From Formosa sp. L2A11 (lineage in GTDB: Bacteria; Bacteroidota; Bacteroidia; Flavobacteriales; Flavobacteriaceae), in NCBI RefSeq assembly GCF_009796865.1, contig NZ_CP047028.1, forward strand, positions 930,001-994,000: 64,000 nt of DNA, in the 5' to 3' direction. The notes beneath the pieces were generated by a model. That model was given only the letters and a program-made list of their open reading frames with translations. It was not told the DNA's origin and ran no database searches. The position numbers and the translations under genes were made by a program. Positions 2,227-57,762 of this stretch are shown piece by piece (position 1 is the stretch's first letter; each line of letters begins with the position of its first letter).

Positions 2227-4233
2227 ATGAAAAAGTTAGTCTTAAATTTCTTTAAAGTTGCTGGATTAGTATCAGCTGTAGCTTTTACAAGCTGTAGTAC
2301 AGACGATCCAGAATCTGTCGGACAAGAACAAGCAGATGTAATTACAAATCTTGATGCTGGTATCTTAAACGGTACTTTACAAGAAAGCTACTCTTTAGAA
2401 GCAGGTGTACAATACCAATTAACTGGACAATTTATTATTGATGACAATGCTGTTTTAAATATTCCTGCTGGAACAAAGATCGTTGCAGAAAATGGAGGAA
2501 CAGATGTTTATATCGCTACTTTAAAAGGAGGAACAATAAACATTAACGGTACAGAAAGTAGCCCTGTAATTATGTCTTCTGTAAATGCACAACCAGGTGA
2601 CTGGGGAGGATTAACACTTTGTGGAGACGCTACAACTTCTGCAGGTACAGATGCGACTGCAGAAGTAGGTGGTTTTACTTACGGTGGATCAAACGATAGC
2701 GATAGTTCTGGAATTATTAAATACTTACAAATTTCAGGTACAGGAGCACAAATTAACTCAGAATCTCAATACAATGGTGTATCTTTTTACGCTGTAGGTT
2801 CTGGTACTTACGTAGATAACGTAGCCATAATTAATGGATCTGATGATGGTGTTGAGTTTTTTGGAGGTACAGTTAGCGTGTCTAACTTATATTTAGAAAA
2901 TCTTGATGATGACGCTATCGACTGGACAGAAGGATGGAATGGATCTGTAAACAGAGCTTACATATCTAATACTATTTCTGGATTCTCTACAGTTTTTGAA
3001 GGAGATAAAGATAACGGGAACCCAACATTTACAGACATTACAGCGATCTCTACTGTTGGAGGAACAGCTTTACAATTTAAAAAAGAATCTGGAGGAACAA
3101 TCACTAACCTTTCTTTAAGTGGTTACGATGTAGATTTAGACATGAAAGACGGAGGAGCTCTTTCTAATGTTGTTTTTGAAGACAATTACACAGCTGTTGC
3201 TTATGCTACAGATGAAGAAATGGAAGCTTCAGGAGAATACTTTTACGGATTAAACACTTCAGTTATTGCAACTGTTGATGTAAATGATTTTGCTTGGGTA
3301 GATACAAACATATCTTTTGATACAGACGTATTACAAGGAGCTGTAACTGGAGATGTTACTTTAGATGCTTCTATTAGCTATACTTTAAATTCTTCTTACA
3401 TCGTTCAAGATGGTGGAAAATTAACAATCCCTGCAGGAACAAAAATCACTGCTAGAGATGGTGGAACGGGTGTTTACATCGCTGTATTAAAAGGAGGAAC
3501 AATAGACATTCAAGGAACAGAAACTAATCCTGTTGTTATGTCTTCTGTTAGTGCTGAACCTGGAGACTGGGGTGGATTAACAATTTGTGGTGATGCTTCA
3601 ACTACTGCTGGTGCTGATGCTACTGCTGAAATTGGAGGATTTGTTTACGGAGGATCTAACGATGCTGATAACTCTGGATCTATTAAAAACTTAGTTATAA
3701 AAGGAACAGGTGCTCAAATTAACTCTGAGTCTCAATACAATGGTGTATCTCTTTACGCTGTAGGTTCTGGAACAGTCTTAGAAAACATTGCTGTAATTAA
3801 CGGAGCTGATGATGGTATCGAGTTTTTCGGAGGATCTGCTTCTGCAACTAACTTATACTTTGACAATAACGATGATGATTCTATAGACTGGACTGAAGGA
3901 TGGAACGGAACTGTTACAAATGCATACATTTCTCATACTAAAGAAGGATTCTCTACTGCTTTTGAAGGAGATAAAGACAATAACAATCCTAAGTTTATAA
4001 ACATTACAGCAATCTCTACTGTAGGTGGTACTGCATTACAATTTAAAAAACAATCTGGAGGAACAATCACTAACTTATACTTAAGTGGTTACGATCTTAA
4101 CATCGATATGAAAGATGAAGGACCTTTAGCTAATGTAATTATAGATGGTCAAGCAGCTACAACTACAGATGCTTATAACGAAGGAACTCAAGTAGACATC
4201 TCTACTTGGTCTTGGATTAACGCTAGTTTATAA
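2227..4233 (+). CDS. Surface lipoprotein with two tandem parallel beta-helix domains
   Basis: 668 residues. An N-terminal lipoprotein signal ends at Cys23 (context 'AFTSCSTDD'), with acidic residues following as in exported Bacteroidota lipoproteins. The body is two homologous halves, about residues 42-330 and 362-668. Each contains the ordered landmarks 'IPAGTKI', 'GDWGGLT', 'QINSESQYNGVS', 'DWTEGWNG', 'FEGDKDN' and 'STVGGTALQFKK', so the gene arose by internal duplication. Glycine- and asparagine-rich rungs fit a right-handed parallel beta-helix. Proteins of this type have sometimes been labelled 'multidrug transporter' in databases; nothing here supports transport across a membrane, since there are no TM segments. 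It sits between a TonB receptor and a PiT transporter and has a PHO-like box in its leader. It could be the surface binding partner of the receptor; function not established. Confidence 0.7.
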   Translation: MKKLVLNFFKVAGLVSAVAFTSCSTDDPESVGQEQADVITNLDAGILNGTLQESYSLEAGVQYQLTGQFIIDDNAVLNIPAGTKIVAENGGTDVYIATLKGGTININGTESSPVIMSSVNAQPGDWGGLTLCGDATTSAGTDATAEVGGFTYGGSNDSDSSGIIKYLQISGTGAQINSESQYNGVSFYAVGSGTYVDNVAIINGSDDGVEFFGGTVSVSNLYLENLDDDAIDWTEGWNGSVNRAYISNTISGFSTVFEGDKDNGNPTFTDITAISTVGGTALQFKKESGGTITNLSLSGYDVDLDMKDGGALSNVVFEDNYTAVAYATDEEMEASGEYFYGLNTSVIATVDVNDFAWVDTNISFDTDVLQGAVTGDVTLDASISYTLNSSYIVQDGGKLTIPAGTKITARDGGTGVYIAVLKGGTIDIQGTETNPVVMSSVSAEPGDWGGLTICGDASTTAGADATAEIGGFVYGGSNDADNSGSIKNLVIKGTGAQINSESQYNGVSLYAVGSGTVLENIAVINGADDGIEFFGGSASATNLYFDNNDDDSIDWTEGWNGTVTNAYISHTKEGFSTAFEGDKDNNNPKFINITAISTVGGTALQFKKQSGGTITNLYLSGYDLNIDMKDEGPLANVIIDGQAATTTDAYNEGTQVDISTWSWINASL

Positions 4234-16296: not shown

Positions 16297-16326
16297 TTTG
16301 ATATTATATTTTTTGTTCTAATTTTG
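16297..16326 (+). promoter_or_regulatory. Promoter of the CLC-type gene (-33 TTTG, -7 TAATTTTG)
   Basis: TTTG at 16297-16300 and TAATTTTG at 16319-16326 are spaced by 18 bases, fitting the Bacteroidota consensus. The predicted transcript start is near 16333, immediately before the riboswitch-like sequence. Confidence 0.55.
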
Positions 16327-16335
16327 TTTATACTC

Positions 16336-16384
16336 GGCAATGAGGTTTGCCTTAAACCGTTCTTAGAAAACTAATGATTACTAC
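16336..16384 (+). promoter_or_regulatory. Candidate fluoride (crcB-type) riboswitch aptamer, possibly degenerate
   Basis: GGCAATGAGGTTTGCC (16336-16351) matches the GGCrAUGrnGUUyGCC core with a GGCAA/TTGCC stem. It is followed by the conserved AAACC(G), a small hairpin and CTAATGA...CTACC, the order seen in known crcB-motif RNAs. The long-range pairing normally made by GAGGU with ACCUC would here use AUUAC (16377-16381), with one A-A mismatch and two G-U pairs, so ligand response may be weakened. Downstream, CTACCGTA (16381-16388) can pair with TACTGTAG (16403-16410) with one mismatch as an expression platform. It sits before a CLC-F type gene, the expected target. Confidence 0.6.
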
Positions 16385-16432
16385 CGTATTAAGACTTGTT
16401 ATTACTGTAGAAGTTATTAATATTTAGTAATT

Positions 16433-17739
16433 ATGACTTTTGAAAATTTTAAAAAAAAACTAACCTCTTTCGAGCAAATTCCTTCTTTATACTACCTTAT
16501 TAAATGGCTAATTATATGCACATTTATAGGAATTATTACAGGAAGTATTTCTGCATTCTTCTTAAAAAGCTTAGAATGGGCTACAGCATACAGGGAATCT
16601 AATTTATGGATTATTGCTTTATTACCTGTTGGTGGATTTATTATAGGAATTACATATCACTTATATGGAAATAGTGTTGTTAAAGGAAACAACTTACTTT
16701 TAGAAGAGTTTCATTCTCCCAAAAAAGTAATTCCGTTTAAAATGGCCCCTTTAGTTTTATTTGGAACTGTAATAACGCATTTATTTGGAGGTTCTGCCGG
16801 TCGTGAAGGTACAGCCGTACAAATTGGTGGAGCTGTTGCAGATCAATTCACAAAAATATTTAAACTTTCTAAAATAGATAGAAAAATTGTTATAACAGCA
16901 GGTATTAGTGCTGGTTTTGCTTCTGTTTTCGGAACACCTTTAGCAGGAGGTATTTTTGCTTTAGAAGTCCTTATTCTGGGACGTATTCGTTTAGATGCCG
17001 TTGTCCCAAGCTTTTTTAGCAGCCGCTTTAGCCAATTACTTTTGTGTAATTTGGGGTATTCATCACACGCATTACAGTATAGAATCTGTTGCCGAAATGA
17101 ATTTTGTAAATTTACTTTGGGCCATGCTAGCAGGTATTATTTTTGGACTAGTAGCCATGTTGTTCTCAAAATCTACGCACTTTTGGTCTAGCCAATTTAA
17201 ACGATTTATAAAATATCCGCCGTTACGTCCAGCTATTGGTGGTGTAATTTTGGCTATTATTATTTACAGTATTGGGACTACTAAATACATCGGACTTGGT
17301 GTACCAACCATTGTACAGTCTTTTACTTCTAACATGAATTTCTTACGACTTTTTAGCGAAACTTTTATTTACATCCTTTACGCTTGGCGCAGGATTTAAG
17401 GGCGGAGAAGTGACTCCATTATTTTATATAGGTGCAACATTAGGAAACGCATTAATCTGGTTTATTCCACTCCCAATGGGCTTGCTAACAGGTATGGGAT
17501 TTGTTGCCGTTTTTGCAGGAGCCACTAACACACCTATAGCATGTACTATTATGGGTATTGAATTATTTGGGGTTGAAGCAGGAGTTTTTATTGCAATTGC
17601 TTGTAGTATATCTTATTTATTTTCTGGACACACAGGTGTATATACTGCTCAAATTATTGGAAGTCCGAAAAACGAAAGTGTTTTCAAGGAGAAAGGATTT
17701 ACTTTATCTGAAATAGAAGATAAAAGACATCTAAAATGA
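16433..17739 (+). pseudogene. CLC-F type fluoride/proton antiporter gene with two +1 frameshifts
   Basis: Three consecutive frames give one CLC protein of about 434 residues. Frame A (from ATG 16433) holds 'KGNNLLLEEFH', the GNN-type selectivity motif I associate with fluoride-exporting CLCs, and 'GGSAGREGTAVQIGG', the gating-glutamate loop. It runs to about 17012, where an extra T in the T6 run at 17012-17017 shifts the frame ('VVPSF' then 'LAAALANYF'). The second frame continues to about 17339, where an extra T (17339-17341) shifts it again into 'SYDFLAKLLFTSFTLGAGF', 'GGEVTPLFYIGA' and the C-terminus. Uncorrected translation stops at 17191. The frame-restored stop overlaps the DUF190 start (ATGA). 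It is either a real pseudogene or an indel-error locus; the second site, TT to TTT, is not a typical homopolymer error. Confidence 0.85.
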
Positions 17740-18080
17740 AAACAACAATCACTATAAGAATTTACTTCGAATACGGCAAAAAACGTAAAGATGTTCCGTT
17801 TTGGAAGACACTTCACGAATCGGATTTCGGAACTGTAATTTTAAAGAAAGCGAAAGCTTCTAATTTAAACCAAGTACTGCAATTTAATGTCTCTAGAGGC
17901 TATTTTGATAATAAAAAAATAAATTGGGGACTTGGTGATGTTCAACATTTTAAACATCCTCAAATTATTGAAATCACAGATACTCCAGAACAGATAGAAT
18001 TGTTTTTAGAACAAGAAAAGGAGTTCTTTAAAGACACTTCTATTTATATCATTAAGAATGAAATTATTCTAAAATCTTAA
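17736..18080 (+). CDS. DUF190 family protein (fluoride/CrcB-associated)
   Basis: 114 residues, soluble. N-terminal 'TTITIRIYFEYGKKRKDVPFW' resembles DUF190, a ferredoxin-like-fold family often encoded beside the fluoride channel CrcB or CLC-F. It shares an ATGA overlap with the end of the CLC gene, so it was part of the same riboswitch-controlled unit. The frame is intact although the gene before it is frameshifted, so its translation may now depend on its own ribosome entry. No crcB gene is in the window. Function in fluoride tolerance is inferred from association only. Confidence 0.75.
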   Translation: MKTTITIRIYFEYGKKRKDVPFWKTLHESDFGTVILKKAKASNLNQVLQFNVSRGYFDNKKINWGLGDVQHFKHPQIIEITDTPEQIELFLEQEKEFFKDTSIYIIKNEIILKS

Positions 18081-55866: not shown

Positions 55867-57762
55867 ATGAGCGATGCTTTAAAACATGAATGCGGTATAG
55901 CACTCATAAGACTTTTAAAACCATTAGAATACTATAAAGAAAAATATGGTACTGCATTTTATGGTGTAAATAAAATGTATTTAATGATGGAAAAACAACA
56001 CAATCGTGGTCAAGATGGTGCTGGTTTTGCAAGTATTAAATTAGACACTCAGCCAGGCGAACGTTACATAAGCAGAGTACGATCTAATGCTCAACAACCT
56101 ATTCAAGATATATTTGCTCAAATTAACGGAAGAATAAATCAAGAATTAGTAGAACACCCAGAATATACTGATGATGTAGAGCTTCAAAAAAAACACATCC
56201 CTTATTTAGGAGAAGTGCTTTTAGGCCATGTACGTTATGGTACATTTGGAAAGAATAGTGTAGAAAGTGTACACCCGTTTTTAAGACAAAACAACTGGAT
56301 GCACAGAAACCTTATTCTTGCTGGAAACTTTAACATGACTAATGTTAACGAATTATTTGATAATTTAATTCGTCTTGGACAACACCCTAAAGAAAAAGCC
56401 GACACCATTACTATAATGGAAAAAATTGGTCATTTCTTAGACGATTCTGTTGCAAAAAAATACAAACAATTAAAAGCAGAAGGCTATTCTAAAACAGAAT
56501 GCTCGCCTTTAATTGCCGAACGCTTAAACGTTGGTAAAATTTTAAAAAGAGCTGGTAAAAATTTCGATGGTGGTTTTGCTATGGCCGGAATGTTAGGACA
56601 CGGAGATTCTTTTGTTTTACGTGATCCTGCAGGAATTAGACCAGCATATTACTACCAAGACGATGAAGTGGTTGTTGTTGCTTCAGAACGCCCCGTAATT
56701 CAAACTGTTTTTAATGTAGATTTCGATCAAGTAAAAGAACTAGATCCGGGTCATGCTATTATTACTAAAAAATCTGGGGAAGTAAAAATCGAAAAGATTT
56801 TAGAACCTACAGAACGCAAAGCATGTTCTTTCGAACGTATTTATTTCTCTAGAGGAAGTGATGCAGAAATATACCAAGAACGTAAAACATTAGGTAAATT
56901 ATTAATGCCTAAAGTTCTTGAAACTATTAATTACGACACCAAAAACTCTGTTTTTTCTTATATTCCTAACACAGCAGAATCATCGTTTTACGGGATGATA
57001 GAATCTGTTGAAGATTATTTAAATAAAAGAAAAACAAAAGCCATAATTGAAGGTAAAGATTTATCTGAAGAGCAAGTTACCGAAATACTAAAAGAACGTC
57101 CTAGAATTGAAAAAATCGCAATTAAAGATGCTAAGCTTCGTACATTTATAACAGAAGACAGCAGTCGAGACGATTTAGTAGAACACGTTTACGATGTTAC
57201 TTACGGCGTTATTAAAAACACCGATAATATTGTAATTATAGACGATAGTATTGTTCGCGGTACCACACTTAAGAAAAGCATTATTAGAATGCTAGATCGC
57301 TTACACCCTAAGCGTATTGTTGTAGTATCTTCTGCTCCACAAATTCGTTACCCAGATTGTTACGGTATAGATATGGCAAACCTAGAAAGCTTAGTTGCTT
57401 TTAGAGCCATGTTAAGCTTACTTAAAGATCAAAATAAATATCATTTAATAGAAGAGACTTATAAAAAATGTATCGCTCAAGTAGATATGAAAGACACACT
57501 GGTTCAGAACTTTGTTAAGGATTTATATGATGAATTTACAGATGATGAATTATCTATAAAAATAGCAGAACTTATTTCTGACGACACAATTAATGCTGAA
57601 GTTTACACCATTTTCCAAAGTGTTGAAAACTTAAATAAAGCGTGTCCTAAAAATTTAGGTGACTGGTATTTTACAGGAAATTATCCAACTCCTGGAGGTA
57701 ATCGTGTGGTTAACAGAGCATACATTAATTTCTACGAAGGCAACAACCAACGTGCTTATTAA
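55867..57762 (+). CDS. purF: Amidophosphoribosyltransferase
   Basis: 631 residues, longer than E. coli PurF (505), as is usual in Bacteroidota. The Ntn glutamine-hydrolase Cys is residue 9 ('KHECGIALIRL'), so a short propeptide must be removed. The PRPP loop is 'NIVIIDDSIVRGTTLKKS' around 455-472. 'GTFGKNSVESVHPFLRQ' and 'SERPVIQTVF' are glutaminase-domain landmarks. It makes phosphoribosylamine, the first committed step of purine synthesis. It begins 22 bp after the hairpin of the preceding terminator. Confidence 0.96.
   Translation: MSDALKHECGIALIRLLKPLEYYKEKYGTAFYGVNKMYLMMEKQHNRGQDGAGFASIKLDTQPGERYISRVRSNAQQPIQDIFAQINGRINQELVEHPEYTDDVELQKKHIPYLGEVLLGHVRYGTFGKNSVESVHPFLRQNNWMHRNLILAGNFNMTNVNELFDNLIRLGQHPKEKADTITIMEKIGHFLDDSVAKKYKQLKAEGYSKTECSPLIAERLNVGKILKRAGKNFDGGFAMAGMLGHGDSFVLRDPAGIRPAYYYQDDEVVVVASERPVIQTVFNVDFDQVKELDPGHAIITKKSGEVKIEKILEPTERKACSFERIYFSRGSDAEIYQERKTLGKLLMPKVLETINYDTKNSVFSYIPNTAESSFYGMIESVEDYLNKRKTKAIIEGKDLSEEQVTEILKERPRIEKIAIKDAKLRTFITEDSSRDDLVEHVYDVTYGVIKNTDNIVIIDDSIVRGTTLKKSIIRMLDRLHPKRIVVVSSAPQIRYPDCYGIDMANLESLVAFRAMLSLLKDQNKYHLIEETYKKCIAQVDMKDTLVQNFVKDLYDEFTDDELSIKIAELISDDTINAEVYTIFQSVENLNKACPKNLGDWYFTGNYPTPGGNRVVNRAYINFYEGNNQRAY

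Follow-up and report, generated by a model that had tools for sequence, protein, structure and literature searches.

The fluoride riboswitch and CLC-F exporter gene of Formosa sp. L2A11 are best explained as parts of an ordinary fluoride-response operon of a Formosa species, and the two frame breaks that interrupt the exporter gene in the assembly are probably residual one-base insertion errors. The locus lies in the window, by which we mean the whole 64,000-nucleotide stretch of DNA that was analysed (G000:C1:930001-994000), on a genome (G000) that consists of a single 3.78-Mb contig. A sequence-only reading of this stretch had proposed that riboswitch and gene were decaying together, a claim that three results presented below speak against: one-base insertions scattered over the assembly, congeneric leaders that fall below the Rfam threshold in front of intact CLC-F genes, and the window's own riboswitch score, the highest among the Formosa leaders scanned. 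The features of the locus, in window positions, are the following:

16297-16326, + strand: Bacteroidetes-type promoter-like element (TTTG at 16297-16300, 18 nt, TAATTTTG at 16319-16326), with the aptamer directly 3' of it
16327-16390, + strand: fluoride riboswitch aptamer (crcB motif, RF01734), by cmscan; 61.7 bits with our own model R1, of which the window row is itself a part
16342-16346, + strand: pseudoknot 5' strand, from pair counts in alignment A2
16377-16381, + strand: pseudoknot 3' strand, from pair counts in alignment A2; A16380 stands opposite A16343
16407-16419, + strand: proposed anti-aptamer strand; in fluoride-free conditions it could base-pair with the pseudoknot 3' strand (about 16372-16384); duplex versus shuffles, p=0.033
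16433-17191, + strand: first frame of CLC-F, from the start to the first break and then an out-of-frame tail to a stop; PF00654 positions 1-143
16995-17399, + strand: middle frame of CLC-F (matching part about 17010-17339); PF00654 positions 127-251
17012-17017, + strand: first frame break; compared with congeners, the T run is one base longer (DNA alignment)
17339-17341, + strand: second frame break; here, too, the T run is one base longer than in congeners (DNA alignment)
17341-17739, + strand: last frame of CLC-F, with GEVTP and the stop; PF00654 positions 267-345
17736-18080, + strand: DUF190 gene, 114 aa, overlapping the CLC-F stop (ATGA); PF02641 at 24.0 bits against a cut-off of 23.4, a marginal match

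Riboswitch, exporter gene and DUF190 gene

The sequence-only reading had recognized a crcB-type aptamer and suggested a covariance search, which bears it out: against the full RF01734 model, positions 16327-16390 of the plus strand scored 41.3 bits (cmscan; gathering score 34, E 4.9e-8), while no second match was found anywhere in the G000 genome at E 0.001. This score, together with the invariant positions described below, confirms the identity of the leader as a fluoride riboswitch, that is, as a predicted sensor. In the place of the promoter noted directly before the aptamer there is a promoter-like element, with a TTTG-18-TAATTTTG arrangement that we take to fit the Bacteroidetes promoter consensus. 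The TAATTTTG element is retained in five of the six other Formosa leaders (L008, L009/L089, which are one species, L090, L091 and L092) and is missing from that of L093, which is dissimilar overall. The ATG of CLC-F is found downstream of the aptamer, at 16433.

From there on, three overlapping frames (16433-17191, 16995-17399 and 17410-17739) match successive parts of Voltage_CLC (PF00654). When aligned to the intact 434-aa CLC-F of another Formosa (L008), the three pieces show 93% (residues 1-197), 92% and 95% identity and contain no further stop. Relative to this protein the breaks fall at 17010-17023 and 17339-17341, and at the DNA level each amounts to a single additional base within the T stretch that had been singled out before, so that the description of the frame as broken by two single-T insertions holds. 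The motifs GNNLL (16685), GREGT (16799) and GEVTP (17404) are each present in their respective frames, the first being the GNN motif already taken as fluoride-type. The signatures given for CLC-F in the portion of a published survey that we consulted (PMC11139923) are GNNLI or GMGLI, GREGT/V and GEVTP; the window protein thus differs in the final I of the first, replaced by L, and has the same GREGT and GEVTP. The intact orthologue L008 matches the CLC-F of PDB 6D0J at E 2.9e-63, whereas its best ClcA entry is at 2.2e-12, and by this sequence comparison through L008 the gene belongs to the CLC-F family, closer to CLC-F than to the chloride CLCs.

Elsewhere the gene was found in one piece (at least 380 of 434 residues) at all of 84 comparison loci, made up of 79 loci (the best 80 of 162 relatives, minus the query L008) plus L090-L094; two of them have a late stop, at residue 428. 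In a survey of 299 Flavobacteriaceae genomes, 32 had a CLC-F match (E 1e-60 or lower). This match was split in G000 only and in one piece in the 31 others, two of which (G285 and G255) have a TAA inside it; the match in G158, 37% identical, is possibly something other than a genuine CLC-F.

The DUF190 gene had been described as intact, and it is indeed a single frame that runs from 17736 to 18080. Beside the CLC-F genes of L008, L009, L090, L091 and L093 a DUF190 match without a stop was also found, and none was detected in this position in L092 or L094. No work tying bacterial DUF190 to fluoride was found in the literature, part of which was available as partial text.

Origin of the two frame breaks

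G000 was compared with the congener G003 along three syntenic blocks spanning 944 kb of G000, in both directions. Frame switches were present in 3/309, 2/138 and 3/114 of the covered G000 genes (8/561), or 7/560 after one flagged 84-aa ORF lying over tRNA-Leu genes was dropped as spurious. None was detected among 564 genes of G003 (306+141+117) in the reverse direction (7/560 versus 0/564, Fisher p=0.007). Matches with an internal stop and no frame switch, nine in the forward and eight in the reverse direction, were left uncounted. The seven broken genes are CLC-F, which is the only one with a frame switch among the 48 window genes covered by G003, and the following, located outside the window:

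G000:C1 1061.5-1064.0 kb: PorW/SprE
G000:C1 1212.1-1215.3 kb: RecB-like helicase
G000:C1 1292.0-1294.2 kb: two feoB parts
G000:C1 2008.7-2009.5 kb: ABC ATPase
G000:C1 2028.7-2029.7 kb: D-Ala-D-Ala ligase (ddl)

The indels that break these frames have a marked bias: 11 of 12 are one-base insertions and one is a deletion (p=0.006). The bias persists when CLC-F is left out (9/10, p=0.02) and when an uncertain PorW insertion near the end of the gene is removed (10/11, p=0.01). By eye, nearly all of them fall within A/T runs of 3-6 bases or next to one, in a genome that is AT-rich and with the chance rate uncontrolled. In a smaller comparison, carried out on the window, frame-switched genes were not confined to G000: for the 631-aa gene at 55867-57762, which is open in the window and in G003, the orthologue in G004 switches frame near residue 108.

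D-Ala-D-Ala ligase is considered essential. In G000, ddl is split over three frames by two breaks, and no other gene for this enzyme was found in the genome. There are five other matches to the Ddl C-terminal profile; the four that were scanned against ATP-grasp families turned out to be two biotin carboxylase-like proteins, one RimK-like protein below the cut-off and one PurK, the fifth (L266) having been left out of that scan. Because of the essential nature of Ddl, the insertions in its gene are very probably errors, and the completeness of G000, 94.96% compared with 99-100% in five congeners, fits this interpretation. A mutator strain was considered as another source of indels and ruled out, MutS and MutL being encoded intact in single open frames. 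Since the insertion signature found in CLC-F is the same as in other genes, including ddl, its two breaks are best read as errors too, in which case the living cell would probably make an intact CLC-F. Among the observations that count against this, two breaks in one 1.3-kb gene are above what a uniform error rate would lead one to expect, and the 12 indels include a deletion. Two breaks are also present in four of the six other broken genes (PorW, the second one being uncertain, the ABC ATPase, ddl and the N-terminal part of FeoB), but real pseudogenes would show two as well.

The alternative that fares best is a real and recent pseudogenization of CLC-F, with both insertions being true mutations and fluoride export relying on CrcB alone. 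We regard it as unlikely, even though, besides the presence of two insertions within a single gene, several features of the coding sequence speak for it. Private amino-acid changes number 11 in the window CLC, compared with 0-1 in the three close relatives L008, L009 and L090 (the numbers are 9 in L091 and 7 in L092), and A352T affects a residue that is constant at the 84 loci drawn from the best 80 of 162 relatives and L090-L094. Its ratio of nonsynonymous to synonymous changes (N/S) is also above that of the pooled CLC genes of its relatives, at 16/27 versus 18/100 in a ten-gene set (p=0.004) and, less clearly, 21/36 versus 25/86 in a 36-gene set (p=0.07). In addition, the genome carries an intact CrcB, a redundancy that would make the loss tolerable, and the low number of family genomes with both exporters (10 of 299) makes the loss of one of them plausible. 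Against this, the N/S of the CLC equals the window's own background, with 57/114 in the other genes of the ten-gene set (p=0.72) and 305/566 in those of the 36-gene set (p=0.78); the three pieces have kept 92-95% identity and acquired no further stops; the DUF190 gene is intact; and the same insertion signature runs through the assembly, ddl included. As to the shared genes taken together, the private N/S over the ten-gene set was 0.50 in the window, 0.31 in L008, 0.19 in L009 and 0.27 in G003, and over the 36-gene set that of the window was not raised (0.54 versus 0.44-0.71).

Programmed or slippage-based recoding that reads through both shifts, which would agree with their having the same sign and lying in T runs, was rejected as extremely improbable: the gene is in one frame at all 84 loci (from the best 80 of 162 relatives plus L090-L094), the T runs are just six and three bases long, and the first out-of-frame stop comes well over 150 bases past the first shift.

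The reading of the breaks as insertion errors also carries a caution, for a convincing story of a decaying gene weakens sharply once the error pattern of the assembly itself is measured. A broken ddl could serve as a cheap internal control in any genome scan, and other apparent pseudogenes of the G000 genome call for the same care.

Drift of the aptamer and a possible translational switch

The aptamer was compared with 21 others from Flavobacteriaceae (alignment A2, 22 sequences). In the window, the five pseudoknot pairs are, in order, G-C, A-A, G-U, G-U and U-A, so that four of five are standard and two of these are G-U, in agreement with the single A-A mismatch and the pair of G-U pairings seen in the letters alone. 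The window has the fewest Watson-Crick pairs in this helix of the 22 aptamers and is alone in having the second pair unpaired. A single mismatch at a different pair is present in three of the other 21 (L109, L111 and L117), and across the 22 sequences 96% of the cells of the helix are paired. Of five measures taken over the whole aptamer structure, covariation and two more were above all of 500 shuffles, and the observed values of the other two were reached by 130 and 393 shuffles. The window retains all 19 positions that are invariant in the other 21 aptamers, and differs from them at one position, with T where 20 of the 21 have C. According to PMC11077080, whether a transcriptional fluoride riboswitch switches is decided by individual pairs of its pseudoknot, and on that basis the A-A mismatch may well matter.

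This weak pseudoknot is what favours the notion of coupled decay, in which riboswitch and exporter would be lost together once regulation no longer matters. We consider it very improbable and have rejected it, since riboswitch drift also occurs alongside intact CLC-F genes. In three congeners, F. algae (L009), G004 (L091) and G001 (L092), the leader scores under the Rfam threshold and the 434-aa CLC-F is intact, which shows that drift of the riboswitch in Formosa is untied to gene loss; by eye, the leader of F. algae has lost two invariant bases and that of G001 one pseudoknot loop base, and the leader of G004 has mismatches in P1 and in the pseudoknot. The aptamers of L109, L111 and L117, with one mismatch each, are located directly upstream of one-piece CLC-F genes, the match of one of which contains a TAA. 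The top score of the window and its complete set of invariant positions argue in the same direction. No related work on a fluoride riboswitch and a pseudogene was found in the literature, as far as the partly available sources go. The weak pseudoknot is best explained by ordinary drift; of the six Formosa genomes searched, five also carry CrcB.

How the switch would act was explored in 28 leaders. None of them has a run of five or more U between the aptamer and the ATG. Pairing of the pseudoknot 3' strand with a stretch located 14-26 nt upstream of the ATG gave p below 0.05 against shuffles in 11 of the 28: four of the six Formosa leaders, that of the window (0.033) included, and seven of the 22 others; the combined p is small, for sequences that are related. 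Many of these leaders have, shortly before the ATG, a GUAGAA-AUCAUU-like segment that is complementary to this 3' strand. The fold of lowest energy predicted for the window leader pairs the 3' strand instead with the start-codon region, around 16425-16434. This fold has a z of -3.0, with 2 of 200 shuffles equally stable, and for the five remaining Formosa leaders z lies between -0.2 and -1.5.

Whichever of the two pairings holds, these predictions suggest that the switch may act on translation. When fluoride is absent, the pseudoknot 3' strand would pair just upstream of the ATG or at the ATG itself and hinder translation; in its presence, the pseudoknot would form and the ATG region be freed. 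In this way, a riboswitch that senses Mg-bound fluoride would control the CLC-F fluoride/proton antiporter and the overlapping DUF190 gene. We found no related paper linking the fluoride riboswitch, translational control and Bacteroidetes, several of the sources being available in part.

Fluoride exporters in the family and comparison with known systems

It had also been proposed that another fluoride exporter might exist elsewhere in the genome, with crcB as the gene to look for. An intact CrcB/Fluc gene was in fact located at G000:C1:171757-172095 (98.2 bits), with no riboswitch found at its locus. Two further CLC genes of G000 were considered as backup exporters and discarded, their sequences at the place of the GREGT motif of CLC-F being GSVGLEGPT and GSLGPEAP. 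In the 299 genomes of the family, CrcB is present in 264 and CLC-F in the 32 already mentioned; 13 have neither, and CLC-F stands alone in 22. This near-exclusion (Fisher p=5e-17, with genomes counted regardless of kinship) agrees with the published survey, which, in the part consulted, describes the two exporters as usually exclusive and about 3% of strains as having both (PMC11139923). Within Formosa, CrcB is found in five of six genomes, the remaining one being G001 (L092), where no match was found in the genome and CLC-F is intact.

Some observations were made on fluoride riboswitches in other genomes. Matches over the Rfam cut-off were present in at least 15 genomes, with stricter filters that lose weak matches, and nine of these 15 have no CrcB. 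In L016, L018 and L023 a fluoride riboswitch (3714-3774) is located about 2.2 kb upstream of CLC-F, and in G171, seemingly the genome of L023, it lies just before crcB. No paper covering the fluoride riboswitch, CLC-F and CrcB together was found in the literature.

As one of the few genera with both exporters, Formosa is a place to study why one replaces the other. If the loss of CLC-F in G000 were real and recent, the lineage would be in the course of losing one of two exporters that normally exclude each other, while still keeping the riboswitch and the DUF190 gene, G001 would be its mirror image, and the genus would offer a natural experiment in exporter replacement.

Taken as an ordinary operon with insertion errors in its sequence, the locus can be set beside several known systems. 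The aptamer has the same fold as the crcB motif of RF01734 and lies above its gathering score, with a pseudoknot that is weaker than in other members. In comparison with the CLC-F of PDB 6D0J, the gene in the G000 assembly has its frame broken twice. The Fluc/CrcB channel, present intact in the same genome, belongs to a different family and occupies a different locus. Finally, long-read assemblies suffer from indel errors that fragment genes, as stated in the accessible part of PMC12007338, and the isolated one-base indels of G000, which break otherwise conserved genes, are like those errors.
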